This document shows positions 1 through 18,857 of a stretch of 64,000 nt of DNA, one piece after another. Each line of letters begins with the position of its first letter. Position 1 is the first letter of the stretch. The notes beneath the pieces were generated by a model. It worked only from the letters and a program-made list of their open reading frames with translations. It was not told the origin of the DNA and did no database searches. The stretch comes from Comamonadaceae bacterium. GTDB taxonomy: Bacteria; Pseudomonadota; Gammaproteobacteria; Burkholderiales; Burkholderiaceae_C. The stretch lies in assembly GCA_947455465.1 (NCBI GenBank), contig CANGNS010000021.1, positions 1 to 64,000 on the forward strand. Direction: 5' to 3'. Position numbers and translations under genes: made by a program.

Positions 1-546
1 GCCTTGGAGACGCAAGATTTTGCGGCCCTGAACACTTCCAGCATTGCTGCATTGCAGACGGCGCAGATCGCCGCATTGACGACTGCAGAAATTATTGCTC
101 TGAGCAATATTCAGGCTGCTGCCTTGATCACTCAGCAAGTGGCAGCCATGAGCACCTCGCAGGTAGCTGCTATAGAAGCGACAGACTTTGCTGCCTTGAG
201 CAGCGCGAGTGTGATGAACCTGCAGACCAACCAGATCCTGGCATTGACCACCGCGGACCTGGCGGCATTGGCGACATCCCAAGCAGTGGCTTTGATGACG
301 AAGCAAATCGTGGCCTTGGAAACTTCGGATCTGGCAGCCATCAATACCCGCAGCTTTGCAGCGCTGCTGACTTCGCAAATCGCGGCCCTGACTACGTCAC
401 AAACCGCCGCACTGACGACGGCTGAAATGCGCGCCATGACCACAACGCAAATGCAGGGCATGACGACCAAAGATATCGCAGCCCTCTCCACCACGCAGGT
501 GGCGGCACTGACTACCTGCGGATTTACCGCGTTGCAAACCCAGGCC
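1..546 (+). repeat. 24-bp / octapeptide repeat array 1
   Basis: Twenty-two complete octads plus a partial one at the window edge encode units such as IAALTTAQ and VAALTTCG. The first residue of each unit is usually hydrophobic, positions 2-4 are mostly A-A-L, position 6 is usually Thr and position 8 is often Gln, Asp or Glu. The protein period is exact while the DNA has diverged, so the array is old and under protein-level selection. Confidence 0.9.
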
Positions 547-1707
547 TTGAGCGCCAATGCCAAGTTGGTCTATACGCCTATCGTGCTTGACTTAAACGGT
601 AACGGCATCACGACCCTGGCCATGGCCGATGGTGTGCAGTTTGATTTGCTGGCCAGCGGCCAGCCGGTGCAGACCGGTTGGGTCGCGCCAAGCGATGGCT
701 TGTTGGTGCGAGACCTGAACGCAGATGGAACGATTAACAACGGTACCGAGTTGTTTGGTAATGCCACGGTGCTGGCCGATGGCAGCACGGCATCCGACGG
801 CTACCAGGCCTTGGCCGAACTCGACAGCAACCATGACGGTGTGATCAGCAGTGCCGATGCGGTGTATAGCCAATTGGGTGTGTGGGTCGATAGAGATACC
901 GACGGTTTCAGCGATGCTGGGGAGGTGCTATCTCTGGCGGACCTGGGCATCACAGAAATAGCGGTGACGGCGCAGGTCACCTCCACCCAAGACCATGGCA
1001 ATACCATCGGTTTGACATCCAGTTACCAAACTGCCGACGGTGCCAGCCATTTGGCCGGTGACGTATGGTTTGCCGCGCAGGATGTGGCCAGCTACGCTGC
1101 TTTGGGCGCACTGAGTACGGCAAACGTGGCAGCTTTGCGAACCGAGCAGCTTAGTGCCTTGAGTACCGTGCAAGTGCAGGCTCTTACGACCGCAGACCTA
1201 GCCGGATTGCAAACGCAAGAGGTATCAGCATTGGGCCGAGTGGATGCGTTGGCACCCATGGTGGCCGGATCAGTGTCCAGCAACAGTACCTATGTTGCCC
1301 AGGTGGCTAGTGCTAGCGACTCGCCAGCTAGCGAACCAACGCGAGACGTTTCAGTGACTCTAGCCTCCGGTGTGGCGCAGCGTGCCAGTGCATTGGCGCA
1401 AGCCATCGGAACATTCGATTTGGCAGGAGGGCCGCGTAGCGTCTCTACGCCAACGCTCAATGCGCCGGTTGATTCGTATGGTGCCATGACGCGCACAGCC
1501 ACTCTTGCGGTTGGCAATCTGGTGGATCAGATGCGCAGCTTTGAGAACCAAGCCGTCGGCGCAGCGGCTGGACAAGCCGGTATGGGTACCGCTGCGCCGT
1601 CTGCATTGACGGCGATGCAAGCGGCGCCAATAGGCATGTTGGATCCATTGAAGAAGCCGCCCCCCAATGACTTCGCCGGTTTGTCCGGTATCGACCTCAA
1701 GCGCTAG
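1..1707 (+). CDS. Octapeptide-repeat, calcium-binding surface/secreted protein (5' end outside window)
   Basis: This is the C-terminal part of a larger protein. The reading frame is open from base 1, and the first six codons (ALETQD) already sit in register with the octapeptide array, so the TTG at 4 is a repeat leucine and not a start. Order of parts: about 22 octads of the form [IVLF]-A-A-L-x-T-x-[QED] (1-546); a calcium-binding block opening with YTPIVLDLNGNGI and carrying DLNADGTINN and DSNHDGVISS loops like those of RTX proteins and EF-hands (about 571-960); six more octads (1102-1245); then an Ala/Ser-rich tail of about 150 residues ending in a Pro-rich segment. The repeats are very rich in Thr and Ser. 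Role is inferred: an exported adhesin, S-layer or RTX-like protein, possibly glycosylated by the neighbouring enzymes. No secretion gene lies in the window. Confidence 0.8.
   Translation, partial: ALETQDFAALNTSSIAALQTAQIAALTTAEIIALSNIQAAALITQQVAAMSTSQVAAIEATDFAALSSASVMNLQTNQILALTTADLAALATSQAVALMTKQIVALETSDLAAINTRSFAALLTSQIAALTTSQTAALTTAEMRAMTTTQMQGMTTKDIAALSTTQVAALTTCGFTALQTQALSANAKLVYTPIVLDLNGNGITTLAMADGVQFDLLASGQPVQTGWVAPSDGLLVRDLNADGTINNGTELFGNATVLADGSTASDGYQALAELDSNHDGVISSADAVYSQLGVWVDRDTDGFSDAGEVLSLADLGITEIAVTAQVTSTQDHGNTIGLTSSYQTADGASHLAGDVWFAAQDVASYAALGALSTANVAALRTEQLSALSTVQVQALTTADLAGLQTQEVSALGRVDALAPMVAGSVSSNSTYVAQVASASDSPASEPTRDVSVTLASGVAQRASALAQAIGTFDLAGGPRSVSTPTLNAPVDSYGAMTRTATLAVGNLVDQMRSFENQAVGAAAGQAGMGTAAPSALTAMQAAPIGMLDPLKKPPPNDFAGLSGIDLKR
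1102..1245 (+). repeat. Octapeptide repeat array 2 (six units)
   Basis: Six further in-frame octads (for example VAALRTEQ, LSALSTVQ, VQALTTAD, LAGLQTQE) follow the calcium-binding block. They have the same period and consensus as array 1, so the calcium-binding domain appears inserted within a longer repeat region. Confidence 0.85.
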
Positions 1708-1816
1708 TGCCTGGCGCTTAGCGCCGATTTGGCAAGCTAAAAATAGGGTGATCGCAGCGCCAACTCAGATGCCACCTGCGGTAGGCATCCACCTCTTCAG
1801 GTATTGGCCAAAGCCT
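1708..1816. other. Convergent intergenic stretch with two hairpins
   Basis: Between the convergent repeat-protein gene and the first methyltransferase lie a GGCGCT/AGCGCC palindrome (1713-1725) and a second hairpin with arms GATGCC (1768-1773) and GGCATC (1784-1789). Neither has a clear T-tract. They could end transcription in both directions, but this is weakly supported. Confidence 0.35.
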
Positions 1817-2623
1817 TCAGGCTACAGCGGTGGCACCGTACCACTGCTGCGGAAGTACTAATTCATCCCGGGCCTGGTAACACGCATTGTCCAGCGGATG
1901 GGGAAATTCCTGACAGTAATCCAATGCGGGCGAGCGGTCTCTGCGCAGCAAAGTGATTTCAAAAAATTGCGGTGCCATGAAACCGTTGAGATTGAGCAAG
2001 GCTCCGTGGTTGTTGGGATGGTTGTGCACCACATGAAAATCAGTGAGCAGTTTTTCAAACATAGCCTCCACCGTATTGAAAAATAGGGGATGCGCCCAGC
2101 ATTCGACATAGTGAATTTCCAGCACGATGATGCGAAAACGTCGGAGCACTTCTTGCGGTGTTGCCAGAAGAGTAAGGTACTCGCCGCCCTCTATGTCCAT
2201 TTGTAATAGGAGGTCTTGTTCCAGCTGGTATTCAACTTGGCTTTTCACCCATGTTTCCAAGGTGGTGTGGATGAGGTTGTTATTGGGCCCGAGGAATTTC
2301 TTGATAAATGACTTGGGCTTGAAATTAGCAGGTGGTCCATCGACTGAGTAGTCAGCCAGGTGCGACCCAATGCCGGTCTTTTGAAGTAAATCGAGCTCAA
2401 AGCTGGAGTTCACTTCTACGCCGGGCGAAAAGCAGGCCGAAATACCGCTTAGATCATCGGGCACCAAATAGCCGCCATCATGTGCGCTTCCGATGCGGAT
2501 CAAAGGAAAACGGATCTGAACCGGGCGCATGGCATGGGCCAATTGCTGCAAGCGCTGAGCAGGCGTGGCGTTTTCTACATACACGCCGTTCTGGTACAAA
2601 GCCAGAGATTTAATCGGTTCCAA
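1817..2623 (-). CDS. FkbM-type SAM-dependent methyltransferase (paralogue A)
   Basis: 268 residues. Shows the hallmarks of the FkbM / Methyltransf_21 group: a DGGYLVPDDL segment, a SPGVE segment near the SAM site, and LQMDIEGGEYLTLL, where the acidic motif is expected. It is clearly homologous to the gene at 3820-4623, with roughly half of aligned residues identical by eye; the two flank a glycosyltransferase. FkbM enzymes O-methylate sugars or small molecules; here the likely substrate is a glycan made by this cluster (inference). It lies on the minus strand as the last member of an apparent operon running from about 8.3 kb to 1.8 kb. Confidence 0.8.
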   Translation of the reverse strand: MEPIKSLALYQNGVYVENATPAQRLQQLAHAMRPVQIRFPLIRIGSAHDGGYLVPDDLSGISACFSPGVEVNSSFELDLLQKTGIGSHLADYSVDGPPANFKPKSFIKKFLGPNNNLIHTTLETWVKSQVEYQLEQDLLLQMDIEGGEYLTLLATPQEVLRRFRIIVLEIHYVECWAHPLFFNTVEAMFEKLLTDFHVVHNHPNNHGALLNLNGFMAPQFFEITLLRRDRSPALDYCQEFPHPLDNACYQARDELVLPQQWYGATAVA

Positions 2624-2689
2624 GGTCTACTCCGTTGTACTTGCAATCATGGTGATGTGAAGCGATCGAGGCAAGCGGCTAATGCGCAC

Positions 2690-3796
2690 TTAAGGCGTGC
2701 GAGGCGCCAATGTGCGGCTTGCATCTTGCCCTATCTCATGCAGAAAATGCAGTATTTTTTCCGCCGCAAGATCCCAGCAATAGTGTTGGCGCACATGGTC
2801 GGAGCCGGCCAAACCTGATGCGCCGGGGAGGGCCGCCGCCGCCACGATGCGCTGCGCCAGATCTGTCACATCCGGATAGGCCCACTGTCCATAGTCGCCG
2901 TCGCTATGGCCAACCGCGTCCTTGAAAGCTTGGCAGTCCACGGGACCTAGCTTGGTTTGGATGATGTCGGCCTCGGGCAAGAAACCTAAGTATTCGGAAT
3001 GGCCGCCAAAGCGGGTGCTGATGCAGGGCAGGCCGCAGGCAATAGCCTCAATCAGTGGCAGGCTCCAACCTTCGCAGCGCGAGGGATGCAAAAAATAGTC
3101 CGCCGAGTAATACAGCGTGCGCATTTGCTCGCGCGAAAAGTTGCCGGTATACACCACGATGCTGAACTTGTCCTGGTATTGCTGCACCAGCTGAATGAAC
3201 TCTGGGTGCAGTACGGCATTAGTGCCGTTAATCCAGTCGGACTTGGTCAGTAGCTCTAAGCTGGCACCTTGCTCTACAGCGATTCGCAGCGCCTCAAAGG
3301 CTTCGCGGTAGCCTTTTTTTTGCTCGTATTTGCCCACCATCAAAAATTTGGTTTTACCACCGGGTGCGGGCATTGGTCTGCCGTAAGGGTTGTAAAACTT
3401 GGGGTCCACCCCTTCGGGGATGACGACAATTTTGCTGCCGTCGATGCCGCGTTCGACCATGATGTCTCTGCCCCAGTGGCTGGTGGCAAAAATATAGTGA
3501 AAACTTTCCAGCCATTGTTCATAACCGGGGTTGGGTCGGCTGGCGTCGAACACGCACCAGTAAATCTTGGTTCCCTTGAGGTTATTGGCATACACCTCAG
3601 GGAAAAAGAAAATATTGACGTCGCTGTCCACGCTATCCGACACCGCCGCCTGCACCTGGTCAAGGTAATTGTGCTTTATCAACTGAACCTGAATACTTTC
3701 AAACTGGAATGCCTGCAAGGCTTTAACCGTTTGGGAGCAGTGGGTTCCCACGCCGGTGGGGCTGTCAACGCCAAAAAATCGGATACGGGGAAACAT
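2690..3796 (-). CDS. GT4-type glycosyltransferase (group 1)
   Basis: 368 residues from the chosen start. The sequence begins MFPRIRFFGVDSPTGVGTH, a glycine-containing N-terminal loop typical of GT-B enzymes, and carries SRCEGWSLPLIEAIACGLP, the E-x7-E region that binds the sugar nucleotide in GT4 enzymes, followed by TRFGGHSEYLG. A longer reading frame reaches 3847 but overlaps the upstream gene; the ATG at 3796 starts exactly at the conserved domain and has an AAAGG about 12 bases upstream. It sits between the two FkbM paralogues in the same operon. Donor and acceptor are unknown; glycan extension is inferred. Confidence 0.8.
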   Translation of the reverse strand: MFPRIRFFGVDSPTGVGTHCSQTVKALQAFQFESIQVQLIKHNYLDQVQAAVSDSVDSDVNIFFFPEVYANNLKGTKIYWCVFDASRPNPGYEQWLESFHYIFATSHWGRDIMVERGIDGSKIVVIPEGVDPKFYNPYGRPMPAPGGKTKFLMVGKYEQKKGYREAFEALRIAVEQGASLELLTKSDWINGTNAVLHPEFIQLVQQYQDKFSIVVYTGNFSREQMRTLYYSADYFLHPSRCEGWSLPLIEAIACGLPCISTRFGGHSEYLGFLPEADIIQTKLGPVDCQAFKDAVGHSDGDYGQWAYPDVTDLAQRIVAAAALPGASGLAGSDHVRQHYCWDLAAEKILHFLHEIGQDASRTLAPRTP

Positions 3797-3819
3797 GTAG
3801 AAATTGGACCTTTCGCCTG

Positions 3820-4623
3820 CTAGCCGCGAACCCGGGGCACCCAGCATTGGCCCCAGTCCAGGGGTGGCATATTGTTGACGTTGGGGAAATCCAAGGGATG
3901 TGGGGTAGTGGCAATAGCTCCGGGTGTAGCGCGCGTGCGGCTCAGAAGGCTAAGCTCAAAAATGCGTGGCGCTACGAAACCATTCATGTCTACCAGACCC
4001 ATCGCATTGTTGGGGTGGCTGTGCACAATAAAGTGCGAGCGCAGCAATTTGGTGAAAGTAGCTTCTACGATATTCAGAAAATCGCCGTGGCCCCAACTCT
4101 CGACAGAATGGAACTCGATGACCATGATGCGAAATTTGGCGAGAACGCTGGCAGGGCAGGCTAGCAAGGTTTCGTATTCCGCGCCTTCCACGTCCATTTG
4201 CAAAATCAACTCGTCTTTTTGCGCATGCGGTTCGAACTGCATGACCCAGTCTTCCAAAGCCACATGGTGGCCAGCCGTGTTGCCACCTACAAATTTTTTG
4301 ACAAAAGACAGGGCTTGCAAACCATCAGGCACTTTGTCCACGCTGTAATCGGCCAGATGCGAGCCGATGCCGCGCTTGAGCAAGTCGGTTTCAAAAGTCG
4401 CAAAGGTATCGACGCCAGGGGAGAAGCAGGCTTTGATGTCTTGTAGATCGTCAGGTACCAAGTAGCCACCGTCGGCCGCCGAACCCATGCGCACCAGGGG
4501 AAAAGGCGATTGCTGCGGGTGCAGCTTTTGCGCCAGCGCATCTAAACGGCCGGTCGGTGGCATGGGATCGACGAATATGCCTTGCGAAAACATGTCGTAG
4601 CGAAAATGGCCGGGTGCTTGCAT
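3820..4623 (-). CDS. FkbM-type SAM-dependent methyltransferase (paralogue B)
   Basis: 267 residues, a paralogue of 1817-2623. Shared blocks include ADGGYLVPDDL, ACFSPGV, RGIGSHLADYSVD, LQMDVEGAEYETLL and SHPNN. The family's SAM-binding and acidic motifs are present, so it should be active. The paralogues differ most at the N-terminus and in the last 30 residues, which suggests different acceptors. It is spaced 12 bases from the upstream FkbM gene, consistent with co-transcription. Proposed role: O-methylation of a sugar in the glycan assembled by this locus (inference). Confidence 0.8.
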   Translation of the reverse strand: MQAPGHFRYDMFSQGIFVDPMPPTGRLDALAQKLHPQQSPFPLVRMGSAADGGYLVPDDLQDIKACFSPGVDTFATFETDLLKRGIGSHLADYSVDKVPDGLQALSFVKKFVGGNTAGHHVALEDWVMQFEPHAQKDELILQMDVEGAEYETLLACPASVLAKFRIMVIEFHSVESWGHGDFLNIVEATFTKLLRSHFIVHSHPNNAMGLVDMNGFVAPRIFELSLLSRTRATPGAIATTPHPLDFPNVNNMPPLDWGQCWVPRVRG

Positions 4624-4635
4624 GGGTGCTTCCGA

Positions 4636-5358
4636 TCAGGTAGGTAGGCTGCTTTTGATGGTGTGCACGATCTCGTTGTTAGATACAAATAAAGCATCGT
4701 TGGCAAATTTGTGCAGCAAAGAAAAACCGGGAAGACAGGCGCTCAAGGTGGCGAAATTGATTTGCCCTTCGTACCATTCATCGTCACTGAACTCGGTATA
4801 AAAAAACCGTGTCCGACTTAAGACCTGCTGCGCACCTACCAGCAGGTCGCTCTCTGCGCCTTGTACGTCGGCCCAAATGAAATCCACCGCACCGATCTGC
4901 TTAGCGCTTGCCCAGTCGTCCAGGCGCATCATGGGCACCGGAATTTGGCGCTCGAACTTCACCCAGGGCCAGACCTCCAAATGCGACTTCGGTTTGCGGA
5001 TGGAGCCTGAATGGTCCCAACCCTGCGGGTCTATGTGTTCAGCCCCCGAGCTTTGGTGAAACATGACGGTGCCGTTGTCAGCGCCTATGGCAATCTCTTC
5101 CAAACTCACCAGTGGGCTGCGTATATGGGATTTGAATTTTTGGATCGCGCGCGGGTCCGGCTCGAAACAAATGATGCGGGTGGTAGGCATGTGATGGATA
5201 AATTCAGCCGTAGTCTGTCCGCTGTTAGCGCCTACCTCTAACACCAGGGGTGACCCGCTACCACTACCGACCAAATGCTTGACTTCCTGCACCGACAGCG
5301 ATTCGCCAAAGGAAAGCTGCCGCAGGGCGCGGTAGGCGTTAACAATGTCGGGATTCAT
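4636..5358 (-). CDS. FkbM family methyltransferase (canonical form)
   Basis: 240 residues. SAM-binding motif LEVGANSGQTTAEF near residue 38, then CFEPDPRA (ribose-binding acidic residue), MRLDDW and ADVQGAESDLL: the standard order of the FkbM domain. It is more distant from the two DGGY-type paralogues than they are from each other. The gene is separated from the upstream fucosyltransferase-like gene by 9 bases. Probable function is O-methylation of a sugar or lipid-linked glycan; the substrate cannot be read from sequence. Confidence 0.85.
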   Translation of the reverse strand: MNPDIVNAYRALRQLSFGESLSVQEVKHLVGSGSGSPLVLEVGANSGQTTAEFIHHMPTTRIICFEPDPRAIQKFKSHIRSPLVSLEEIAIGADNGTVMFHQSSGAEHIDPQGWDHSGSIRKPKSHLEVWPWVKFERQIPVPMMRLDDWASAKQIGAVDFIWADVQGAESDLLVGAQQVLSRTRFFYTEFSDDEWYEGQINFATLSACLPGFSLLHKFANDALFVSNNEIVHTIKSSLPT

Positions 5359-5367
5359 AGTGCGTCC

Positions 5368-6714
5368 TTAGGTTTTATTGACTGCGGGCGAAGGCAATGG
5401 ATAGCGTTCATGCAGCGCCTTTTCTAGCATCTCGTCTGAGGGAATAAGGCTCAGTGGTCGGCACGTCATCGCTTGTTGCAGCGCCTGCCTGGCCTGGTCA
5501 TGTTCACTAAGCAAAGTTTTTGCGTAGGCCAGATGCAGCCAACTGCTATAGCGCAATGTTTGGAGTTGCAAGACCGCGATGAAATACAGACTGGCCTGGC
5601 GCGGCTGGTTTTGGTTGAGCAACATCACGCCCAGGCTGTGCGCTATGTCCGGGCGTTGCGCGTCGGTCATGCGCTCAAAGCCCATGCGCATCAGGTCCAG
5701 GGCTTGGCCCGCCTCGCCGTTTTGCATCATGGTCTGGCAGACCTGCAGGAGCATGCCGGGGTCGATAAGTTGGCGCTCTATTTGCTGCGTCATCTCCGTA
5801 AAGCTGAAGTAGGGCAGTGCGGTGGGTCGCGCAATGGGCACCAGTGGTGCGGCCTCGCCTAGCAAGCGGGCCATGCGTTGGAAGGTAGAGCCGGAAAATC
5901 CCACGATCTGACTGTGCGCCAGGATCAAGAGGTCAATCGTCCCTTCGATCATCGCATCGCGGCTACGCTCTATATTGCCGTAGGAAACCCGGCCTTCCTG
6001 GTCTTTGGATAGACTGATCCAGTCTGCGTCGCCTTCCTTTTTTTCCACATGGTGCGTTTTAGGGCGCGCATGGACATGGGTATGCGCACAGGCCAGCGCT
6101 TCGGCCTGCGGGTCGTCGGAGCACACAAAAAAAACTTCGCTCGGATGGCGCTGAACCAGAGCCAACACTTCCGCGTCACTCAGGCCGACGCGTAAATCGG
6201 TGCGGCGCAGGTGCAAGCCATGAAACGGACGCACCAAAGTATTAGAAATAAAGGACTGCACGGCGCTTTGAATGGCCTTGGTAAATTGCAGGCTGCTTAA
6301 TGCTGTGTGAACCAGCGGCTGAGGAATCCAGGGCGCAATAATGGCTGGGTATAAAAATAGGTCTTTACCCTCTGGTAGACCGCGTTGCGCAAAGTCTTCC
6401 ATCGATTGGTAGTCATACGCTGATTCAAAGGGAACTTGCAAAAACTGCGCGCCCATGGCGTCATGCAGCATCATTTTTGCGTCGATGAACTTGCCTGCCA
6501 AAGTGTCCAGCGCGTCGGTACGCACGTCAAACGCGTTGTCGAAAATGTCTGCAAAGGCCGCGCCGCACCAGCTGTTGATCGGCCAGTACACGGTAATGGC
6601 CAGTTCGAACCTTTCGGCAATCGCGATGCCAGATACCAATGCGTTGATGCGGTTACCTATACCGCCATCACAAAAAACATAAATCCGGCGCTGTGTTGGT
6701 GTCGGCAATGTCAT
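5368..6714 (-). CDS. Fucosyltransferase-fold glycosyltransferase with C-terminal TPR region
   Basis: 448 residues. The N-terminus FCDGGIGNRINALVSG resembles the GGxGNR entry of the NodZ / GT11 / O-fucosyltransferase superfamily, and HLRRTDL at about residues 168-174 matches the H-x-R-R-x-D GDP-sugar motif. A further GSTFQRMARLLGE segment resembles the superfamily's third conserved region. Residues from about 320 onward (GEAGQALDLM, NQNQPRQASLYFIAVLQ, HDQARQALQQAM) look like two or three TPR units. I call it a GDP-sugar-dependent transferase, perhaps fucosyl, with a protein-binding tail. The sugar is not established. It is part of the minus-strand operon. Confidence 0.65.
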   Translation of the reverse strand: MTLPTPTQRRIYVFCDGGIGNRINALVSGIAIAERFELAITVYWPINSWCGAAFADIFDNAFDVRTDALDTLAGKFIDAKMMLHDAMGAQFLQVPFESAYDYQSMEDFAQRGLPEGKDLFLYPAIIAPWIPQPLVHTALSSLQFTKAIQSAVQSFISNTLVRPFHGLHLRRTDLRVGLSDAEVLALVQRHPSEVFFVCSDDPQAEALACAHTHVHARPKTHHVEKKEGDADWISLSKDQEGRVSYGNIERSRDAMIEGTIDLLILAHSQIVGFSGSTFQRMARLLGEAAPLVPIARPTALPYFSFTEMTQQIERQLIDPGMLLQVCQTMMQNGEAGQALDLMRMGFERMTDAQRPDIAHSLGVMLLNQNQPRQASLYFIAVLQLQTLRYSSWLHLAYAKTLLSEHDQARQALQQAMTCRPLSLIPSDEMLEKALHERYPLPSPAVNKT

Positions 6715-6724
6715 GGCAGTGGCT

Positions 6725-7375
6725 TCACATCCCCATCCATGCAGCCTGGTAGCCTTGGTAGATGGGTCTTGCGCCTATGTCTTCCATGTAGGTCGCAATG
6801 TATTTGCCTTTTCCGCCAATGCGCTGGGGCGAGACCAGTTTGAGTTGACCAGCGTCGATATAAAAGGTTGCGCTGGTGGGGGAGTCATCTACCAGCATGA
6901 AGGTATTGGCGTTGACCAGCGGCGCTACCGCCAGGAGCTCCTTCATATGGTGCATGGCGCTGTCGTGGGGCTTTTCGACGTCCACGTCAAAGGAGTCGAG
7001 GTACAACAGGTCGATGTGGCTGTAGGGTTTGATAAGGCCAGCACACTGGTGCCGCAAAAACGTTACGCTGTCGGAGGTATGGACCTGAATCCGGCTGGAG
7101 ACAATGCTTTTGCACATAGAAGTGCTCTCCGGGCTGATGTCCACCGAATGGACAATAGTGCCGGGCACGCACTCGCTGAATTTATCGAACAACATAGTAC
7201 TTTGGCCTTCGCCGGTGAAGGTGCCCTGGTTGCGTACGCATCCGGTTTCTATGATGCAGGCGGGTCGCCCTAGCTTCTCTAGATGTTCAAACGCCATACG
7301 GAACGAGCCTGCACGATGTTGTAAAAGTGGCGCGGCAAAGCCGTTGAAATATTCCCAAAATGCAGCGTAGTTCAT
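6725..7375 (-). CDS. Class I SAM-dependent methyltransferase (Methyltransf_24-like)
   Basis: 216 residues. IIETGCVRNQGTFTGEGQST is a motif-I-type SAM loop, followed by VHSVDISPES (acidic strand 2) and DLLYLDSFDVD (motif for the metal/acceptor side), as in Methyltransf_24 enzymes found in polysaccharide loci. It lies ten bases from the next downstream gene in the operon. Likely modifies a sugar or lipid intermediate of the locus; acceptor unknown. Confidence 0.7.
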   Translation of the reverse strand: MNYAAFWEYFNGFAAPLLQHRAGSFRMAFEHLEKLGRPACIIETGCVRNQGTFTGEGQSTMLFDKFSECVPGTIVHSVDISPESTSMCKSIVSSRIQVHTSDSVTFLRHQCAGLIKPYSHIDLLYLDSFDVDVEKPHDSAMHHMKELLAVAPLVNANTFMLVDDSPTSATFYIDAGQLKLVSPQRIGGKGKYIATYMEDIGARPIYQGYQAAWMGM

Positions 7376-7401
7376 GATGTGTCGGAAGTAGTGAGCGTGG
7401 T

Positions 7402-8322
7402 TTATTGCAATACAGGTTTTGCCAAGCCCAGATCGATCAAAGATTGGCGGATATTTTCCACGTCAAAAGCATCTTTGCATGGCGGCGAGTACGGGTCACC
7501 CCGATGGCAAATCACGCCAGTGATCGGCGGCGGGTAATGCTCCTGGCAACCGTAGCAGTCCACCTGCGGTTGGATGGGTATAAAGCGCGCCTGGGGTGGA
7601 CGTTCTAGCGGTTCGCGCAGACGGTGGTGGGCGCTGCTGAACATGGCGATCACCGGCGTATCGGTGCATGCGGCGACATGCAAGGTGCCGGAATCCACGC
7701 CCACATAGCACTTAGCGCCTGCGATGATCTCCCGCAATTCATGGATATTGAAGCTACCCAGCATGTTGAGTAAACGCGGGTGGTAATCAAATGCAATTTC
7801 ATGGGTGGATCCGACCTGCACAATTTTGAAGTCGGTGCATTCAAGCAAAATATCCAAAATTTGCTTCCAGGTCGCGTCAGGCAGATTGCGACTTGGCCAA
7901 GTGTCTTTGCGCATGTGAATCACTGCGTAGGAACCGCCAATTTTTTCCTCCTGAATTGTTTTCACATTCCGGCGGTCGGTTTCTGTCGGAAAGAGTTCTA
8001 AGCGTTTGTCTTTAATTTTTTCGGCCGAGCCGTGCGAGGCCATTGCATAGGCGTCAACCACATGCATATGCGGTAGATTTTCGTATGCCAGGTCGAGGTT
8101 AATGACCCGCGCATACGGGCCTTTCGCCTGGCTATAGTCTTGCGGGGTGTAAACACGGCGCACATAGGGGTTGTTTAGGAATATCTCTGGCTTCATCGTT
8201 AGCACGTCGATGTGGCACTGCCCGCGGTGATCGTGAAATAGCTGTCGGATGATAGGCGTCGCCAGCAAAACGTCGCCGAGCGCCAACTGTCGAACCACCA
8301 TATAATTAGGCAAAATTTTCAT
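7402..8322 (-). CDS. GT9-family glycosyltransferase (heptosyltransferase-like)
   Basis: 306 residues. VVRQLALGDVLLATPIIRQL matches the N-terminal signature of the ADP-heptose:LPS heptosyltransferase family (RxxxLGDxLLxTP), and YVGVDSGTLHVAACTDTPVIAMF matches its conserved nucleotide-sugar region (DSGxxHxA). It is slightly short for LPS heptosyltransferases, and its context is not an LPS core locus, so it may transfer a different sugar. It is the first gene of the minus-strand operon. No convincing Shine-Dalgarno precedes the ATG, and the upstream DNA is AT-rich. Confidence 0.75.
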   Translation of the reverse strand: MKILPNYMVVRQLALGDVLLATPIIRQLFHDHRGQCHIDVLTMKPEIFLNNPYVRRVYTPQDYSQAKGPYARVINLDLAYENLPHMHVVDAYAMASHGSAEKIKDKRLELFPTETDRRNVKTIQEEKIGGSYAVIHMRKDTWPSRNLPDATWKQILDILLECTDFKIVQVGSTHEIAFDYHPRLLNMLGSFNIHELREIIAGAKCYVGVDSGTLHVAACTDTPVIAMFSSAHHRLREPLERPPQARFIPIQPQVDCYGCQEHYPPPITGVICHRGDPYSPPCKDAFDVENIRQSLIDLGLAKPVLQ

Positions 8323-8600
8323 TTCAATAAAGATTTAAATTAAGGAAATTAAAATGCCCGTGCTTTGACCATTTTTACGCGTGAATAACCTAATTGTAGG
8401 GAAAATCTGCACGCTACGACCTGAATTTGTACTCCCGTTGGAATATCTTTTTTAGAATTTTCCATTTGAAAGATTCCGATCGCTAAAGATACTGCAACAT
8501 TTAGCTTCCGACACTTTAGTTTTGGGGCATACTGTTTGCAATATCTTGTTCGGAATTGACCCTGGGTATTTTTCCCATTCGTTGAGCATGGCCAGATGAA
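8323..8600. promoter_or_regulatory. AT-rich divergent intergenic region
   Basis: 278 bases between the divergent GT9 and zinc-ribbon methyltransferase genes. It is visibly AT-rich compared with the rest of the window and has no coding capacity that I can support. A TTGACC at 8365-8370 could be a -35 for the plus strand but has no good -10. Both flanking operons must be driven from here. Confidence 0.5.
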
Positions 8601-9353
8601 ATGAAACCATATAAATGCCTAGTGTGTGGAGAGTCAGCGCCACTTTACGATGTCGTTGATTTCAACAAGAGTTGCGAGGAATATCGGGGGGTATTTCTTC
8701 CGCTTTCCGGCCACCCGGTCTATTATGTCCGCTGCGAAAGCTGCAATTACACTTTCGCGCCGGAGTTCGGATCCTGGAGTGATGCGGATTTTCTGGAGAA
8801 AATTTATAACCAAGATTACGTCAAGGTAGACCCCGATTATTTGGATGTAAGGCAACGCCAAAATGCAGCCATGCTGAACAATTGGTTTGGAGCTTATCGT
8901 GCCCACATCCGGCACTTGGATTATGGCGGTGGAAATGGCTTGTTGGCCCAGTTGCTGCAGGGCGCTCAGTGGAACTCGAAATCCTATGATCCTTTTCCCT
9001 CCAACGATATACAGTTAGTAGACCTCGGAACCTTTAATCTGATCACCGCTTTTGAGGTCTTTGAACATGTACCTGACCCGCATGTCATGATGGAAAATAT
9101 CAGTAGATTATTGGACGGGCCGCAGGCGGTGGTTTTCTTTTCAACCGGCATATCCGACGGTTTGATCAAGGATCATGAGCGCCTCAATTGGTGGTATGCC
9201 TCGCCGCGCAATGGGCACATTGGAATTCATACTTCGAAGAGTCTGAAGGTTTTGGCCCAAAGGCACAATATGAATTTTGGCAGCATGGGCTCGTCCTTTC
9301 ATGTTTATTTTCGGCAATTCCCGCCTTGGGCGGATAAATTAACCAAGCTGTAA
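8601..9353 (+). CDS. Zinc-ribbon class I SAM methyltransferase
   Basis: 250 residues. An N-terminal CLVC...CESC pair (Cys6, 9, 45, 48) forms a zinc ribbon, followed by a Methyltransf_23-type domain: HLDYGGGNGLLAQLL (SAM loop), KSYDPFPS, LITAFEVFEHVPDP and a VVFFSTGI segment. This architecture is common in O-antigen and deoxysugar C-methyltransferase-like proteins. Codon use is more AT-rich than in neighbouring housekeeping genes, consistent with transfer. It lies 51 bases upstream of the SPINDLY-type transferase, probably in one transcript. Substrate unknown. Confidence 0.75.
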   Translation: MKPYKCLVCGESAPLYDVVDFNKSCEEYRGVFLPLSGHPVYYVRCESCNYTFAPEFGSWSDADFLEKIYNQDYVKVDPDYLDVRQRQNAAMLNNWFGAYRAHIRHLDYGGGNGLLAQLLQGAQWNSKSYDPFPSNDIQLVDLGTFNLITAFEVFEHVPDPHVMMENISRLLDGPQAVVFFSTGISDGLIKDHERLNWWYASPRNGHIGIHTSKSLKVLAQRHNMNFGSMGSSFHVYFRQFPPWADKLTKL

Positions 9354-9404
9354 AAGCTGGTTTATTCTGTAAGCCATTGCAACTATTTTTATGGGAGTGT
9401 TCCA

Positions 9405-11216
9405 TTGAACCCAGTTGATAATTTCACCGGTCTCGTTGAGCAGGCGTGGCATGGAAGCCTGGAGTTTTCCGCGCTCATCGATGCCGGTTCCCGCCTTGAT
9501 GCCGTCGGCAAGCGCCCTCTGGTGGCGGTGCTCTACCGCACCTGGTTGTCGCGCAACACCTCGCCTTTCCAACATGTGGTCCACTTCAATTTGGGCGCAA
9601 CCTTAAGCATCGAAAAGGACATTGCTGGCTCCGAGGCCGCCTACCGCGAGGCTATCCGTCTTGCGCCCGGTTTTGTACAACCGCGGGTGAACCTGGGCAC
9701 CCTGCTTGAGGGCCAGGGCAAGATTGAAGAGGCCCTGACCGAATGGCGCTGGGTCACCGAGCACGTTTCGCCCCAGGACCCCAATAACAAGCCTTTGGTG
9801 GTGATGGCACTGAATCAAATGGGCCGGGTGCTGGAGATTCACAAGCGCCTGGACGAGGCGTCGGTGGTCCTAACCAAGAGTTTGGCGCTCGAACCCGAGC
9901 AGACCGATGTCCTGCACCATTGGGTTTCACTTCGCCAAAAGCAGTGCATTTGGCCCACCTACATCCCCCTGCCCAAAGTCAGCCGCAAGTTCATGCAGGA
10001 CGCCACCTCGGCGCTTTCCATGCTCAGCATTTCCGACGATCCGCAGTCACAGCTCGCCGCCGCCCGCCGCTACGTCAAAAACAAGCTTAATTCAGACGTG
10101 CCCAGCCTGGCCAACCCCAACGGCTACGGCCACCGCAAAATCCGCATCGGCTATGCCTCAGGTGATTTTTGCTTGCATCCCGTGTCTTTGCTCACGGTAG
10201 AGCTGTTTGAGCTGCACGACCGCGAAAAATTCGAGGTCTATGGCTACTGCTGGAGCCCGGAGGATGGCTCGCCGATGCGTCAGCGCGTCATCACCGCGAT
10301 GGACCATTTCACCAAAATCCACACCATGAGCGATGCCGAGGCGGCGCAACTCATACGCCGGGACGAAATCGACATCCTGGTGGACCTGCAGGGCCAAACC
10401 GCCGGCGCCCGGGCCAATATGCTGGCCTACCGCCCCGCGCCGGTGCAAATTACCTACCTGGGTTTGCCGGCCACCACCGGCCTGCCTTCGATCGACTACG
10501 TCATCGCCGACAAGTTTCTGATCCCCGAAAACGAGGCGCTTAACTACTCCGAGCGGCCCATTTACATGCCTGACGTCTACCAGGTGAGCGACCGCAAGCG
10601 CAATATCGGCCTCAAGCCCACGCGCGCGGCTTGCAATTTGCCGGCCGAAGGCTTTGTTTTCTGCAGCTTTAATAACAATTACAAATACACGCCCGAAGTT
10701 TTTGACGCATGGATGAACATCCTGCGCCGCGTGCCGGGCAGCGTGCTCTTGTTGCTGGCCGACAACCAGTGGTCTGAGGCCAACATCAAAAAAGAAGCCA
10801 AGGCGCGAAAAATAGACCCGCAGCGCCTGGTTTTTGGCCCGCGTCTGGCCCCCGAGAACTACCTGGCCCGCTACCAGGTGGCCGACTTGTTCTTAGACAG
10901 CTTCCCCTTCAATGCCGGCACGACCGCCAACGATGCGCTCTGGATGGGCCTGCCGCTGCTGACCCTGACAGGGCGCTCCTTTGCCTCGCGCATGGCAGGC
11001 GCCTTGCTGACGGCCGCAAAATTGGACACTTTGATTACCTACAACCTCAAGGACTACGAGGAAAAAGCCGTAGCGCTGGCCAATGACCCGCAAGAAATGG
11101 CCCGCTTGCGCGCCCACTTGCGGTCGGTCCGCAACCAAGGCGTGTTATTTGACACCCCGCGTTTCGTGCGTAACTTGGAAGAACGCCTGGTCCCGCTGGC
11201 CAAGCTGGCAAATTAA
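9405..11216 (+). CDS. TPR-SPINDLY family (GT41) protein O-glycosyltransferase
   Basis: 603 residues. The TTG start at 9405 is supported by GGGAG at 9393-9397 with a 7-base spacer; an upstream ATG is closed by a stop. TPR-like helices occupy about residues 45-180. The GT41 catalytic region begins near RIGYASGDFCLHPVS, with His258 in the family's conserved N-lobe position, then VDLQGQTAGAR, QITYLGLPATTGLPSIDY, FNNNYK with Lys427 matching the catalytic lysine of O-GlcNAc transferases, and NAGTTANDALWMGLP for nucleotide-sugar binding. GT41 enzymes attach GlcNAc, glucose or fucose to Ser/Thr (or Asn) of proteins in the cytoplasm. The Thr/Ser octapeptide protein in the same locus is the obvious candidate substrate (inference). 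Confidence 0.88.
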   Translation: MNPVDNFTGLVEQAWHGSLEFSALIDAGSRLDAVGKRPLVAVLYRTWLSRNTSPFQHVVHFNLGATLSIEKDIAGSEAAYREAIRLAPGFVQPRVNLGTLLEGQGKIEEALTEWRWVTEHVSPQDPNNKPLVVMALNQMGRVLEIHKRLDEASVVLTKSLALEPEQTDVLHHWVSLRQKQCIWPTYIPLPKVSRKFMQDATSALSMLSISDDPQSQLAAARRYVKNKLNSDVPSLANPNGYGHRKIRIGYASGDFCLHPVSLLTVELFELHDREKFEVYGYCWSPEDGSPMRQRVITAMDHFTKIHTMSDAEAAQLIRRDEIDILVDLQGQTAGARANMLAYRPAPVQITYLGLPATTGLPSIDYVIADKFLIPENEALNYSERPIYMPDVYQVSDRKRNIGLKPTRAACNLPAEGFVFCSFNNNYKYTPEVFDAWMNILRRVPGSVLLLLADNQWSEANIKKEAKARKIDPQRLVFGPRLAPENYLARYQVADLFLDSFPFNAGTTANDALWMGLPLLTLTGRSFASRMAGALLTAAKLDTLITYNLKDYEEKAVALANDPQEMARLRAHLRSVRNQGVLFDTPRFVRNLEERLVPLAKLAN

Positions 11217-11224
11217 TCCATCCG

Positions 11225-11656
11225 CTACTTGCCGTTGGGGTTGGCGCTGGGATTGCCGCAGACGCTGTCGCCGGGCTTTTTCCAGCACATGCAGGTGACG
11301 GCAAAGTCCTTCATCTGCCCTTTTTTGACGCCACCCACTGCACCTTGGCGTGTGGCTGCGCTGGGCACATACAGGCGGGGCACAAAGCTCTTGCTGACCG
11401 TGCCGCCGCCCAGCAAATGGACGGTGGCGCCATGGCAGGCCAAGGGGCCCGGCAGGCCATTTTTCACCTCAATGAGCAGTTCGGTGTCAGATTGCTTGGC
11501 CCACCCTGCCGCTTGTTGCACTTTTTGCTGCTCGCTGGGCGAGAGTGCCACCTCTTCATAAGCCGTCTTGCGCTCAAACGGGGTCCAGGCATGGCCGGGC
11601 GCGCACAGACCTGCCAGAGCCAAAAAAGCTAGGGCGGTGCAGCGGCTGCGTTTCAT
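11225..11656 (-). CDS. Small secreted Cys-containing protein of unknown function
   Basis: 143 residues. The first 23 residues form a Sec signal peptide ending GHA-W. The mature part has Cys near LACHGATVHLL and a C-terminal TCMCWKKPGDSVCGN cluster, so disulphides in the periplasm are likely. I do not recognise a family. Its start overlaps the end of the DUF455 gene by four bases (ATGA), which points to translational coupling. It converges on the O-glycosyltransferase gene with only 8 bases between them. Confidence 0.7.
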   Translation of the reverse strand: MKRSRCTALAFLALAGLCAPGHAWTPFERKTAYEEVALSPSEQQKVQQAAGWAKQSDTELLIEVKNGLPGPLACHGATVHLLGGGTVSKSFVPRLYVPSAATRQGAVGGVKKGQMKDFAVTCMCWKKPGDSVCGNPSANPNGK

Positions 11657-12468
11657 GTCGGCAGGACCGCAATTTCGGCCTCGGTAAAGCCCGCGCGGCG
11701 CCGAGCGTCCAGGTTAAAGGGCGGTTTGAGGCCAGGGGCGCGGTGGCGCAGCGCCGCCTCGCGGTAAAAGGCCACCGGTTCCACACCGCGCTGTGCGCAC
11801 AGGTGGTGAAACCACTGGTTGCCAATGGCCACATGCCCCACCTCGTCGCTAAGGATGCGCGCCAAGATGGCGACGGCCTCCTGCGCGTAGTCGGCCGCGA
11901 TTTGGCGCAGCTTGGCTTGAATCACCGGCGTAGCGTCCAGGCCACGGGCCTCCAGCGTGCGCGGTACCAGTGCCATGCGGGCCAGCACATCGCCTTCGGT
12001 CGACACGCACATGGTCCACAGGCCGTCGTGGGCGGGGAAGTCGCCGTAGGCATAGCCCAAGCCGCGTAAATGGTCTTGCAAGAGCGAAAAATGCAGCGCC
12101 TCCTCGCCGGCTACCGTCAGCCAATCGCGGTAATACGCGGGCGGTAGTCCGCAAAAGCGCCAAACGGCATCGAGCGCCAGGTTGATGGCGTTGAACTCGA
12201 TGTGCGCAATCGCATGCATCAACGCAGCGTGTCCGGCCACGGTGTGAGAGGAGCGCCGGGGCACCTGGCGCGGGTCGATCAGGAGCGGTCGCGCCGGGCG
12301 GCCGGGCTCAGACGGCGCCTCCAAGCGGGCTTTGGGCGCACAGCGCAGGGCGGACGCATCGGCGCACAAAGCCTGCACCGCAGCGACTTTGGCGGCGGGG
12401 TCCTGCAGCAGCCATGCGGCCAGGGCTTGTTGGCGAATTTCCATCCCTACAATTCTAGGCATCTGCAA
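11653..12468 (-). CDS. DUF455 ferritin-like protein
   Basis: 271 residues. [27 protein letters not shown] and [16 protein letters not shown] supply the Glu/His ligands of a ferritin-like four-helix diiron bundle, as in DUF455 proteins, whose role is not settled. The ATG at 12468 has AGGGG about 7 bases upstream; an internal ATG at 12444 lacks a Shine-Dalgarno. The gene is divergent from the carbonic anhydrase gene with only 17 bases between starts, so the two promoters must overlap or lie in the other's coding sequence. Confidence 0.8.
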
Positions 12469-12485
12469 CCCCTTCAGGATTTCAC

Positions 12486-13010
12486 GTGGCCGTCTACGAA
12501 CTTGATCAAATTTGCCCCACGCTGGCCGAGTCGGCCTATGTGGCCGACAGCGCCCAGGTCATGGGCGATGTGCATTTGGGCGCGCACGCCAGCGTTTGGT
12601 TCGGCGCCGTGATCCGGGGCGATACCGAGCGCATCACGGTGGGCGAAGGCAGCAACATCCAGGACGGCAGCGTACTGCATGCCGACTTTGGGGCGCCGCT
12701 GACCATCGGCAAGTACGTCACCGTGGGCCACAAAGTGATGTTGCACGGCTGCTCGATTGGTGACGAATCGTTGGTGGGCATAGGCGCCGTCATTCTGAAT
12801 AACGCAAAAATTGGCAAAAACTGCCTGGTCGGCGCCGGCTCTTTGGTCACCGAGGGCAAAGTATTCCCCGACGGCTCGGTCATCATGGGCAGCCCGGCCA
12901 AACTGGTGCGTACCCTGAGCCCCGAGCAAATGCAGGCCCTGCGCATAAGCGCCCAGCATTACATCGACAATGCCAAGCGCTACCAAACTTCTTTTCACAA
13001 AATCGCCTAG
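12486..13010 (+). CDS. Gamma-class carbonic anhydrase family protein
   Basis: 174 residues, GTG start with AGGA upstream. A left-handed beta-helix of hexapeptide repeats runs through the protein ([32 protein letters not shown]). Metal-ligand histidines are seen in [15 protein letters not shown] in the usual YrdA/CaiE-type order. Family members bind zinc or iron; some hydrate CO2 and many have no proven activity. Length is normal for the family. Confidence 0.88.
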
Positions 13011-13063
13011 GCCCTGGCCTGGGCCAGTGCCGGGCGCTCGCGCCCTCGGCCAAGGAGCCCTGA

Positions 13064-14053
13064 TTGTCCCAACTGCATAAATTTCTTTTCGACGGCCTGC
13101 CTGTGCGCGGCATGCTGGTCAAGCTCACCGACACCTGGACCGAAATCCTGCGTCGGCGGGCATCCAACACCGAGCACGGTGCCTACCCCGCGCCCCTGCG
13201 CGACATGCTGGGCCAAATGGTGGCCGCCGCCACGCTGATGCAGTCCAACATCAAGTTTGACGGCTCGCTCACCTTGCAAATCATGGGCGATGGGCCGGTC
13301 AAACTGGCCGTGGTCGAGGTGCAGCCCGACCTGAGCCTGCGCGCTACTGCCAGCCTGATCGGTACCTTGCCAGACCAGGCCGGTTTGGCCGACATGGTCA
13401 ACGTGTCCAACCAAGGGCGCTGCGCCATCACCCTGGATCCCAAGACCAAGTTTCCGGGGCAGCAGCCCTACCAGGGCGTGGTGCCCTTGTTTGACGACCA
13501 CGGCCAGCCTCTTAAGCAACTGGCCGAGGTGTTAGAGCACTACATGCTGCAAAGCGAGCAGCTCGATACCACGCTGGTGCTGGCCGCTGATACCAACGTG
13601 GCTGCCGGCCTGCTCATTCAACGCTTACCGATCCAGGGCGCGGGCAATTTGGAGGGCAGCATGGTCAGCCGTGATAACGAAGATGCCATCGGGCGCGACG
13701 AGGACTACCGGCGCATTTCCCTCTTGGCCAAAAGCTTAAAGCGCGAGGAACTGCTGGGCCTGGAGGTGGACACCATCTTGCACCGCCTGTTTTGGGAAGA
13801 GCCCATGACGCGGTTTGAGCCCCTGCAAGGCGCGCAGGGCCCGCGTTTTGCCTGCAGCTGCAGCCGCGCGCGCGTGGCGCGCATGATTGTCTCGCTCGGC
13901 GCAGAGGAGGCCAACAGCGTGATCGAGGAGCGCGGCCAAATCGAGGTGGCCTGCGAGTTTTGCGGCGTGCAATACCATTTTGATCCGGTGGACACCGCCC
14001 AGTTGTTTGTGGACGCGGCCCGCCAGAGCCAGTCAGGTAACACCGCCCATTGA
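13064..14053 (+). CDS. hslO: Hsp33 redox-regulated chaperone
   Basis: 329 residues. TTG start at 13064 is fixed by AAGGAG at 13052-13057 with a 6-base spacer. The protein holds unfolded proteins under oxidative stress. The C-terminal redox switch is intact: CSCSRARV and CEFCGVQY provide the four zinc-binding cysteines. The N-terminal part (FLFDGLPVRGMLVKL, LGQMVAAATLMQSNIKFDG) is typical Hsp33. Its 3' end overlaps the convergent NadR-like gene by 21 bases. Confidence 0.93.
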   Translation: MSQLHKFLFDGLPVRGMLVKLTDTWTEILRRRASNTEHGAYPAPLRDMLGQMVAAATLMQSNIKFDGSLTLQIMGDGPVKLAVVEVQPDLSLRATASLIGTLPDQAGLADMVNVSNQGRCAITLDPKTKFPGQQPYQGVVPLFDDHGQPLKQLAEVLEHYMLQSEQLDTTLVLAADTNVAAGLLIQRLPIQGAGNLEGSMVSRDNEDAIGRDEDYRRISLLAKSLKREELLGLEVDTILHRLFWEEPMTRFEPLQGAQGPRFACSCSRARVARMIVSLGAEEANSVIEERGQIEVACEFCGVQYHFDPVDTAQLFVDAARQSQSGNTAH

Positions 14054-14563
14054 TGCGGTAATTGCCGCCAGGGCATTTGCCAGGCGCTGCGGGCCCTGCC
14101 CCGTCACCACGCGGTTGGGCAGGCCGTGCTCGTGCAGCCAAAGGCGCAGCAAGGCGTCGGTGCGCGTCTGCAAGGCCGGCCCGTCGCGCAAGATGCCGTC
14201 CGCCTGCCAAGGCAGGTCTGGCGCGCACAAGAGGGTAAGGTCAAACTGGCCTTGGGCGCGCAGGGCCGGGGCCTTTAAAGTGTCGTCCGAAAAATAGAGG
14301 TGGCTGTAAACCGCTGTCATCAGCGGCGTGGTGTCACAGACTAGCCAGTCGGTGGCGCTGGCCTGCGCGATCAAGGCGCCTTGGGCCTGGGCGATGCTGG
14401 CTTGTTCCTGCGCCCGTGGCGTGCGCCCGTGCACGTCGCACCACTGGCGCAAATACTCGGGAACCAGGGTGAGGGGTTTTCCTTCTTGCCGCAGTTGCTG
14501 TGCCAAACCTTGCGCCAGCGTGGTTTTGCCGGTGCATTCCGCGCCTAGCAGGGCGATTTTCAT
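14033..14563 (-). CDS. NadR-like P-loop ATPase/kinase
   Basis: 176 residues from the ATG at 14563, which opens directly on the Walker A motif LLGAECTGKTTL. A longer frame would overlap ftsB. VPEYLRQWCDVHGRTP and CDTTPLMTAVYSHLYF resemble the kinase domain of NadR, which phosphorylates nicotinamide riboside in NAD salvage (AAA_28 family). The helix-turn-helix and adenylyltransferase domains of full NadR are absent, so only a kinase-like role is supported. It appears to be the last gene of the pyrG-kdsA-eno-ftsB cluster. Confidence 0.7.
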   Translation of the reverse strand: MKIALLGAECTGKTTLAQGLAQQLRQEGKPLTLVPEYLRQWCDVHGRTPRAQEQASIAQAQGALIAQASATDWLVCDTTPLMTAVYSHLYFSDDTLKAPALRAQGQFDLTLLCAPDLPWQADGILRDGPALQTRTDALLRLWLHEHGLPNRVVTGQGPQRLANALAAITASMGGVT

Positions 14564-14591
14564 GGCGTGCGCGGGCCGATGCGCCCCGGCC

Positions 14592-14867: not shown

Positions 14868-14885
14868 CAGGTGCGCCAGCCTCAA

Positions 14886-16169
<1,284 letters not shown>

Positions 16170-16221
16170 CTATCGTCTTTCAAAGTTACTGGCAAAAACC
16201 GTTGTCGCTCGCCACAGCGGG

Positions 16222-18797
<2,576 letters not shown>

Positions 18798-18857
18798 CTA
18801 CATTGCGCTTTGAAGCGGCCAGCCCTCCTGCTGGACGTGCAAAAAAGGCGCAAGCGC

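Follow-up and report, generated by a model that had tools for sequence, protein, structure and literature searches.

A conserved pair of TPR-GT41 glycosyltransferase and ALTTAQ octad-repeat genes points to probable cytoplasmic O-glycosylation before type I export

Introduction

In the HMW1A/HMW1B/HMW1C system, which is a two-partner secretion system, the protein is N-glucosylated in the cytoplasm by an enzyme of the glycosyltransferase family GT41 (PMC3983070). In Caulobacter crescentus the soluble enzyme FlmG, composed of tetratricopeptide repeats (TPRs) and a GT-B part, O-glycosylates Ser/Thr residues in the cytoplasm before export, with its TPR part binding the substrate (PMC7591256). Here we analyse a stretch of 64,000 nucleotides from a Comamonadaceae genome of 34 contigs and 3.06 Mb (bases 1-64000 of contig C21, called the window in the following), where positions 1-11216 hold the gene of a GT41 enzyme with TPRs and the C-terminal part of a protein built of octad repeats. 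The latter is a member of the Pfam family ALTTAQ (PF20080), for which the Pfam output gives the repeat name only. We propose that the former would glycosylate the latter.

The likeness of this locus to that of HMW1C is that a GT41-family enzyme gene stands beside the genes of a large, here putatively secreted, surface protein and of an exporter; the HMW1 modification is described as occurring in the cytoplasm, before export and with no lipid carrier (PMC3983070). By contrast, HMW1C uses Asn as acceptor, carries an AAD domain in place of TPRs and has a substrate travelling via Sec and TpsB (PMC3983070), whereas the window enzyme has TPRs, fails the NGT model NF049992 (30.8 bits against a cut-off of 1000), is linked to type I exporter genes and has as candidate site a Ser/Thr in an octad. 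FlmG differs in its substrate, flagellin, in its donor, pseudaminic acid, and in the flagellar export route (PMC7591256). XcOGT and TtOGT, with solved structures and with an aromatic residue where human OGT has C917, belong to the same enzyme subclass; the account of them reports XcOGT as inactive on bacterial lysates and TtOGT as inactive in vitro and gives no fitting native substrate for them (PMC9715652), whereas the window locus encodes a candidate substrate and, with it, a candidate exporter. The Arabidopsis O-fucosyltransferase SPINDLY (SPY) is also a GT41 with TPRs and has the aromatic donor-selecting residue Y744, here Phe502, whereas its targets are nucleocytoplasmic regulatory ones (PMC9715652) and the window enzyme is by sequence nearer to human OGT (285 bits) and XcOGT (278 bits) than to SPY (177 bits). 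By analogy, the present system would work most like HMW1C with its two-partner secretion and like FlmG, via another enzyme subclass and another export route.

No paper in the open-licence PubMed Central literature searched contains the term ALTTAQ, and in the same literature, judged by title and abstract start, no description of a GT41/ALTTAQ system linked to a type I secretion system (T1SS) was found. A term search of the main text of a 2025 review on bacterial O-glycosylation finds neither GT41 nor type I secretion (PMC12645811). The pairing of substrate, enzyme and exporter genes is apparently undescribed, while a description may exist elsewhere. Here a whole clade of bacterial TPR-GT41 (OGT/SPY-like) enzymes is encoded alongside export genes and a candidate substrate that offers a candidate site, so that the question of the native substrates of such enzymes becomes directly testable.

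Results

The GT41 and ALTTAQ genes form a conserved pair

The gene content of positions 1-11216, as listed in a sequence-only reading of the window, is confirmed (Table 1), where the profile scores are judged against the curated cut-offs of Pfam and NCBIfam. That reading had staked itself on the co-occurrence of the repeat and GT41 genes in other genomes, and the pairing is found: GT41 and ALTTAQ make up a real, conserved gene pair. Among 200 genomes of the own family, ALTTAQ matches occur in 53 and GT41 in 124, with GT41 being present in 49/53 of the ALTTAQ genomes versus 75/147 of the remaining ones (Fisher p 1.9e-8); the ALTTAQ genomes without GT41 are G024, G060, G087 and G106. Apart from the own genome, 52 family genomes have ALTTAQ, and in 30 of them the best match was placed. 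GT41 is present in 30/30 of these, and in 23/30 a GT41 and an ALTTAQ match share a contig at a distance of up to 35 kb, where about 1.0 would be expected at random placement (in G160 and G182, counted among the 23, the nearby match differs from the best-scoring one). The seven without a nearby GT41 (G154, G133, G028, G127, G149, G195 and G143) have a GT41-ABC-HlyD cassette elsewhere in the genome, and every placed genome (30/30) has either the one arrangement or the other. The 23/30 count, the GT41 gene counts and genome sizes behind the random expectation and the overlaps between the family tables were compiled by hand.

Beyond the family, ALTTAQ occurs in 14/300 genomes of an order-wide sample, 12 of which are new; GT41 is present in 10 of these, in 7 at a distance of up to 35 kb. 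In a phylum-wide sample it occurs in 25/349 genomes, with GT41 in 17 of those 25 versus 99/324 of the others and 8 ALTTAQ-matching genomes without GT41. The phylum-wide sample is a weaker test of association because 16/17 come from a single family, f43, which lies outside the class and usually has several GT41 matches. It is also seen that f43 genomes (e.g. G302:C92, G326:C153, G263:C17) contain open frames of about 2,700-3,800 aa holding several GT41 domains, some of them within 10 kb of ALTTAQ genes, and that Thr is frequent at positions 3, 4 and 5 of their octads. The Caulobacter vibrioides control genome matches both PF20080 and PF13844.

The same pairing is obtained when the loci are chosen by the enzyme. 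An alignment of 14 GT41s was scanned against named genomes, the loci being the best 80 of at least 542 confirmed candidates, and an ALTTAQ open reading frame (ORF) was called with the repeat profile where at least 3 repeat domains were present. Such an ORF is found in 67/80 loci: in 37/37 of those with about 10 kb of upstream sequence and in 30/43 of those cut upstream. The 13 loci without it have 75-5,176 bases upstream, and two of them, L113 and L146, show the C-terminal domain. In 60 loci the ALTTAQ ORF precedes the GT41 gene in the same orientation, the gap being below 400 bp in 50 of those 60; it is downstream in 2 loci and on the opposite strand in 5. The pair is carried by Thauera, Propionivibrio, Accumulibacter, Nitrosomonas, Duganella, Cupriavidus, Paraburkholderia, Tepidimonas and Methylomonas, and further by a Holophagaceae genome, Riflebacteria/Ozemobacter, a Syntrophobacteraceae genome and a Pelobacter genome. 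Cultivated carriers are, among others, Thauera linaloolentis DSM 12138 (L131), Tepidimonas sediminis (L170) and Propionivibrio dicarboxylicus (L117). The Accumulibacter loci L119 and L125 have the pair, and L123 has the GT41 with the sequence cut upstream.

Type I secretion genes accompany the repeat gene

The octad consensus of the ALTTAQ repeat is A1-L2-x3-T4-x5-Q6-I7-A8. In the window, the repeat part contains 4 Lys/Arg among 184 residues, a scarcity of trypsin sites that may explain why peptides of this kind escape detection. Tandem Repeats Finder detects no DNA-level array in bases 1-20000, and hence the octads are conserved at the protein level. C-terminal to the octads, ORF 1-1707(+) continues with a domain having DxNxDG loops, spotted by eye, and then ends. 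The octapeptide repeat of the sequence-only reading stands, while for the calcium binding that it also ascribed to this protein no calcium-binding Pfam family matches the ORF at E 0.1.

The ALTTAQ gene is interrupted at the contig start, the window opening at base 1 of C21. The remaining ALTTAQ matches in the own genome are all near the end of contig C2, where the repeat ORF G000:C2:2-3481(-), of 1160 aa, runs off the contig (PF20080 529.7 bits, 34 stretches). Directly 5' of it and on the same strand are an HlyD gene (PF13437) and an ABC transporter gene with a C39-like domain (PF00664, PF00005, PF03412), together at L010:4067-7590(-). The secretion genes that the sequence-only reading looked for beyond the window are therefore present on C2, where ABC and HlyD genes stand beside the putative substrate gene. 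In the simplest reading, the C2 and C21 repeat ORFs would be one giant gene split by the assembly within the repeats. As to the size of such genes, in G704:C16 near 304720 an ALTTAQ match lies inside an open frame of 9,542 residues.

The gene order in G162 resembles that of the own genome, with ABC (79% identical), HlyD (59%), a Sel1-repeat gene, ALTTAQ and then a GT41 of another clade; the Sel1-repeat protein gene, L069:2924-4825, between the T1SS genes and the ALTTAQ gene may encode a helper. More widely, GT41, ABC and HlyD genes stand in that order in 17 of 28 regions from 26 genomes, and the OEP gene family is present in the regions of 18 genomes.

The GT41 enzyme and its probable donor

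The window GT41 is the sole GT41 gene found in the own genome. Its residues His258 and Lys427, which align with OGT, are invariant in 14/14 aligned relatives, and we take the OGT and SPY numberings to be equivalent for these His and Lys residues. The active-site His and Lys in SPY are H495 and K665 (PMC9715652). The sequence-only reading had called the enzyme a SPINDLY-type GT41, a label that fits in part: the enzyme is a GT41 with TPRs and has the aromatic Phe502 where SPY has Y744, but its sequence scores are higher with OGT and XcOGT than with SPY (see Introduction).

For comparison, 20 other GT41 loci of the own family were fetched, of which 11 are by flagellin genes and 6 are T1SS cassettes; no ALTTAQ was found in the fetched stretches. 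A tree of 84 GT41 sequences was made with a quick method and midpoint rooting, including 43 of the 80 named loci. In the tree, a branch with SH-aLRT 100 separates 44 window-type and 21 cassette GT41s (65 in total) from the 11 flagellin-linked GT41s. The row G056_B, a wrong pick (the second GT41 of its locus), falls among the flagellin-linked rows. Since the flagellin side also holds 4 GT41s near ALTTAQ genes (G012, G159, G162 and G005), the link to ALTTAQ is not restricted to one clade.

In the PDB alignment, the window Phe502 aligns with human OGT C917 and XcOGT Y463; the same position is F517 in ApHMW1C, a user of UDP-glucose (PMC9715652). This proposed donor-selecting residue is Phe in 44/44 window-type rows, Tyr in 15, Phe in 6 and Cys in 1 of the cassette rows (the Cys being that of the wrongly picked G056 row) and Cys in 11/11 flagellin-linked rows. 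With Phe/Tyr versus Cys at this position, the two groups probably differ in donor: the ALTTAQ-linked GT41s would use a donor different from that of the flagellin-linked ones, and probably one other than UDP-GlcNAc. Fucose is a possible donor sugar of the window GT41. The flagellin-adjacent GT41s of the own family (L264, L266-L268, L271-L273, L275-L277 and L281; Cys in 11/11) likely form a flagellin O-glycosylation group.

These data bear on a rival explanation, in which flagellin would be the target of the window GT41, as it is of the TPR enzyme FlmG in Caulobacter, and the proximity of the GT41 to ALTTAQ would result from a shared cell-surface island. It would fit with the 7 flagellin N-terminal matches in the own genome, where no second GT41 gene was found, with the flagellin genes in the fetched flanks of 15/80 related loci and with the 11/20 other family GT41 loci by flagellin. 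However, the flagellin matches sit on G000:C12 and G000:C25, near the contig starts, while the window GT41 is on C21 and not adjacent to them; the flagellin-linked GT41s are across the fully supported branch and have Cys where the window-type ones have Phe; and ALTTAQ is present in 67/80 loci versus flagellin in 15/80. We thus consider this explanation unlikely.

Octad position 4 as the candidate acceptor

As the first octad comparison used a profile built mostly from GT41-linked repeats, the comparison was redone using a pattern blind to positions 3-5. In the window, position 4 is Ser/Thr in 21/23 octads; on both own contigs together it is Ser/Thr in 72% of 111 octads. In 30 family loci the median of position-4 Ser/Thr is 100% of octads (26/30 at or above 95%, minimum 63%), and for the 60 named loci having 20 octads or more it is 87.5% (minimum 41%). 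The medians for position 3 are 62% (family loci) and 67% (named loci). In the pooled octads of the linked set, 2% of the position-4 residues are Asp/Asn.

In genomes with PF20080 matches where no GT41 was found (GT41-less genomes), position 4 is Ser/Thr in 0% (G391), 5% (G394), 15% (G467), 0% (G254, 8 octads), 0% (G385, 6 octads), 16% (G087) and 27% (G451) of octads. In those seven genomes, three of which are one genus, position 3 is Ser/Thr in 64-88%, and position 4 is often Pro or Ala. Outside the 0-27% range are GT41-less G329, G060 and G106, with 2-3 octads each and 100%, 50% and 33% Ser/Thr at the tested position, and G771, with 7 copies of another repeat and 100%. TPEQ is a frequent motif in the GT41-less octads; it is a usual helix start, having a Ser/Thr cap, Pro next and Gln three residues on, and T-x-x-Q may be read as such a helix cap. 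Open frames of 3,525-4,173 aa with LTPEQ-type octads are seen in G391:C37, G394:C2 and G467:C42, of one genus, where no GT41 was found; perhaps these octads are an unmodified form of the ALTTAQ repeat.

An alternative is that the Ser/Thr at position 4 is structural, with the GT41 being a chaperone or acting on another partner. Ser and Thr are common at helix starts, which would favour it, as would the chaperone role that has been raised for HMW1C (PMC3983070). However, the GT41-less octads, which often have Pro/Ala at position 4 and yet keep Ser/Thr at position 3, imply that the octad does not need Ser/Thr at position 4; the 2% of Asp/Asn in the linked set and the invariance of His258 and Lys427 (14/14) also count against this alternative. 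This alternative is thus very unlikely. Position 4 seems to be structurally free and mostly Ser/Thr wherever GT41 is present, which points to position 4 as the acceptor.

Discussion

We propose a model of dedicated cytoplasmic O-glycosylation of ALTTAQ octads at position 4 followed by type I export, which we judge to be likely. In the model, the TPR-GT41 would recognise the newly made giant ALTTAQ protein, probably via its TPR part, and, in the cytoplasm, would attach a sugar to the Ser/Thr of octad position 4. The modified protein would then be exported by the T1SS composed of HlyD and the ABC transporter with the C39-like domain, joined in relatives by an OEP/TolC-like protein, while the adjacent glycosyltransferases, sugar-nucleotide enzymes and methyltransferases may extend or decorate the glycan in ways that differ between strains. 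This would yield a long protein of the cell surface or matrix with dense and evenly spaced glycans. The core idea of the sequence-only reading, a GT41 acting on fixed-position Ser/Thr of an exported octad protein, is well supported by the genome comparison. Target exclusivity of the GT41, fucose and methylation are unproven candidate features.

Several points weigh against the model. The single gene across the two contig ends (C2 and C21) is an inference, and a T1SS ABC gene of the own type (at least 45% identity) is found in 10/80 loci only, perhaps because in many loci the giant repeat gene occupies the 10-kb flank. The flagellin genes in 15/80 flanks have been mentioned above. Certain GT41-linked loci, down to the 41% minimum, are far from full Ser/Thr at position 4. 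Position 4 is Ser/Thr in 62% of octads in G024 and in 85% in G765, where GT41 was not found in the assemblies; both ORFs are at contig ends. Moreover, the octads in the GT41-less genomes are few and weak PF20080 matches and may be a separate repeat family, and a high PF20080 score partly presupposes Thr at position 4.

A wider picture, to which we give even chances, is that these proteins are a bacterial counterpart of mucins: giant T1SS-exported proteins with up to one O-glycan per octad and hundreds per molecule, made in the cytoplasm by a dedicated TPR-GT41 clade with a donor other than UDP-GlcNAc and bearing fast-changing sugar and methyl decorations. They would occur in several pseudomonadotal groups, including the sludge bacteria Accumulibacter, Nitrosomonas and Thauera, and in loci labelled Thermodesulfobacteriota, Acidobacteriota and Riflebacteria/Ozemobacter. 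The matrix of Ca. Accumulibacter contains diverse glycoproteins and O-methylated rhamnose, and the glycosylation potential of Accumulibacter was assessed there against the lipid-linked pathway of Campylobacter (PMC11320575). It is also noted that a repeat with one possible acceptor per eight residues would be a useful scaffold for controlled multivalent glycosylation.

Neighbouring sugar and methyl genes

Between the repeat gene and the GT41 gene of the window lie sugar and methyl genes (Table 1). NCBIfam gives no family match for the repeat protein, and the other window ORFs are mostly sub-threshold there, except for the FkbM gene at 4636-5358. The GT4 and GT9 transferases named in the sequence-only reading hold, and two of its five methyltransferases (4636-5358 and 8601-9353) are over the cut-off while three are below. 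Its fucosyltransferase-fold enzyme with TPRs is not upheld: the O-FucT score is sub-threshold, the TPRs are weak and no fucosyltransferase is among the PDB sequence-search matches of the ORF.

Table 1. Features in positions 1-11216 of the window, with profile scores
Feature	Positions	Strand	Profile evidence
ALTTAQ octad-repeat protein, C-terminal part; candidate glycosylation substrate	1..1707	+	PF20080 137.9 bits, cut-off 26.4; 7 stretches
FkbM-like methyltransferase; possible glycan decoration	1817..2623	-	20.8 bits, below Pfam cut-off of 22.7
GT4 glycosyltransferase; possible glycan extension	2690..3847	-	over cut-off
FkbM-like methyltransferase	3820..4623	-	20.4 bits, below Pfam cut-off of 22.7
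FkbM methyltransferase	4636..5358	-	FkbM 61.5 bits, over cut-off; also over cut-off in NCBIfam
O-FucT-like protein with weak TPRs	5368..6714	-	both below cut-off; O-FucT (PF10250) 21.4 bits, cut-off 31.5
Methyltransf_24-like protein	6725..7375	-	15.7 bits, below cut-off of 26.3
GT9 (heptosyltransferase-like) glycosyltransferase	7402..8322	-	over cut-off
Methyltransf_23 methyltransferase	8601..9353	+	90.7 bits, over cut-off
TPR-GT41 protein glycosyltransferase	9405..11216	+	PF13844 (Glyco_transf_41) 279.6 bits, cut-off 25

Relatives of the window GT4, GT9, FucT-like and FkbM genes are found in 3-7 of the 80 loci only; the sequence-only reading is well supported in its core, and the roles it gave to these neighbours stay conjectural. 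The window genes as a whole do not behave as a single conserved module: the whole gene order is kept in L102 and L103, both Comamonadaceae metagenomes, and partly in L101, and the set is rare elsewhere among the 80 loci. What recurs are relatives of FdtA (15/80) and DegT aminotransferases (21/80), which suggests dTDP-3-amino-3,6-dideoxyhexose sugars in certain strains. Of the 266 neighbour ORFs, 104 from 29 loci were sorted by Pfam family; GT2 heads the list with 10, followed by DegT, epimerase, FkbM and Methyltransf_11 with 7 each and GDP-mannose dehydratase with 6, and 2 are flagellins; in G007, G013 and G075, FdtA, DegT and hexapeptide genes stand between the cassette and the repeat gene. 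As the neighbours are variable, the decoration genes vary while the repeat protein and the GT41 are the constant core, with T1SS genes recurring; the window GT4, GT9, FucT-like and methyltransferase genes fit in the variable part.

That the sugar and methyl genes would instead make a lipopolysaccharide O-antigen or capsule bound by the secreted repeat protein, itself unglycosylated, on the model of the Caulobacter S-layer, a protein binding to such polysaccharide, agrees with neighbours typical of polysaccharide clusters (GT2, DegT, epimerase, FdtA and hexapeptide genes) and with the GT9 heptosyltransferase-like gene of the window, but we regard it as highly improbable, because the partner that stays constant is a TPR-GT41 and the characterised enzymes of this family in the sources cited here act on proteins, because close relatives of the other window sugar genes are rare across the loci, and because the enrichment of Ser/Thr at position 4 would be left unexplained.

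Finally, we note a fused gene in G007: near its GT41-T1SS cassette, one ORF (L044:12647-16174) combines an asparagine-synthase domain, a stretch like the window FucT-TPR protein and an FkbM-like stretch.

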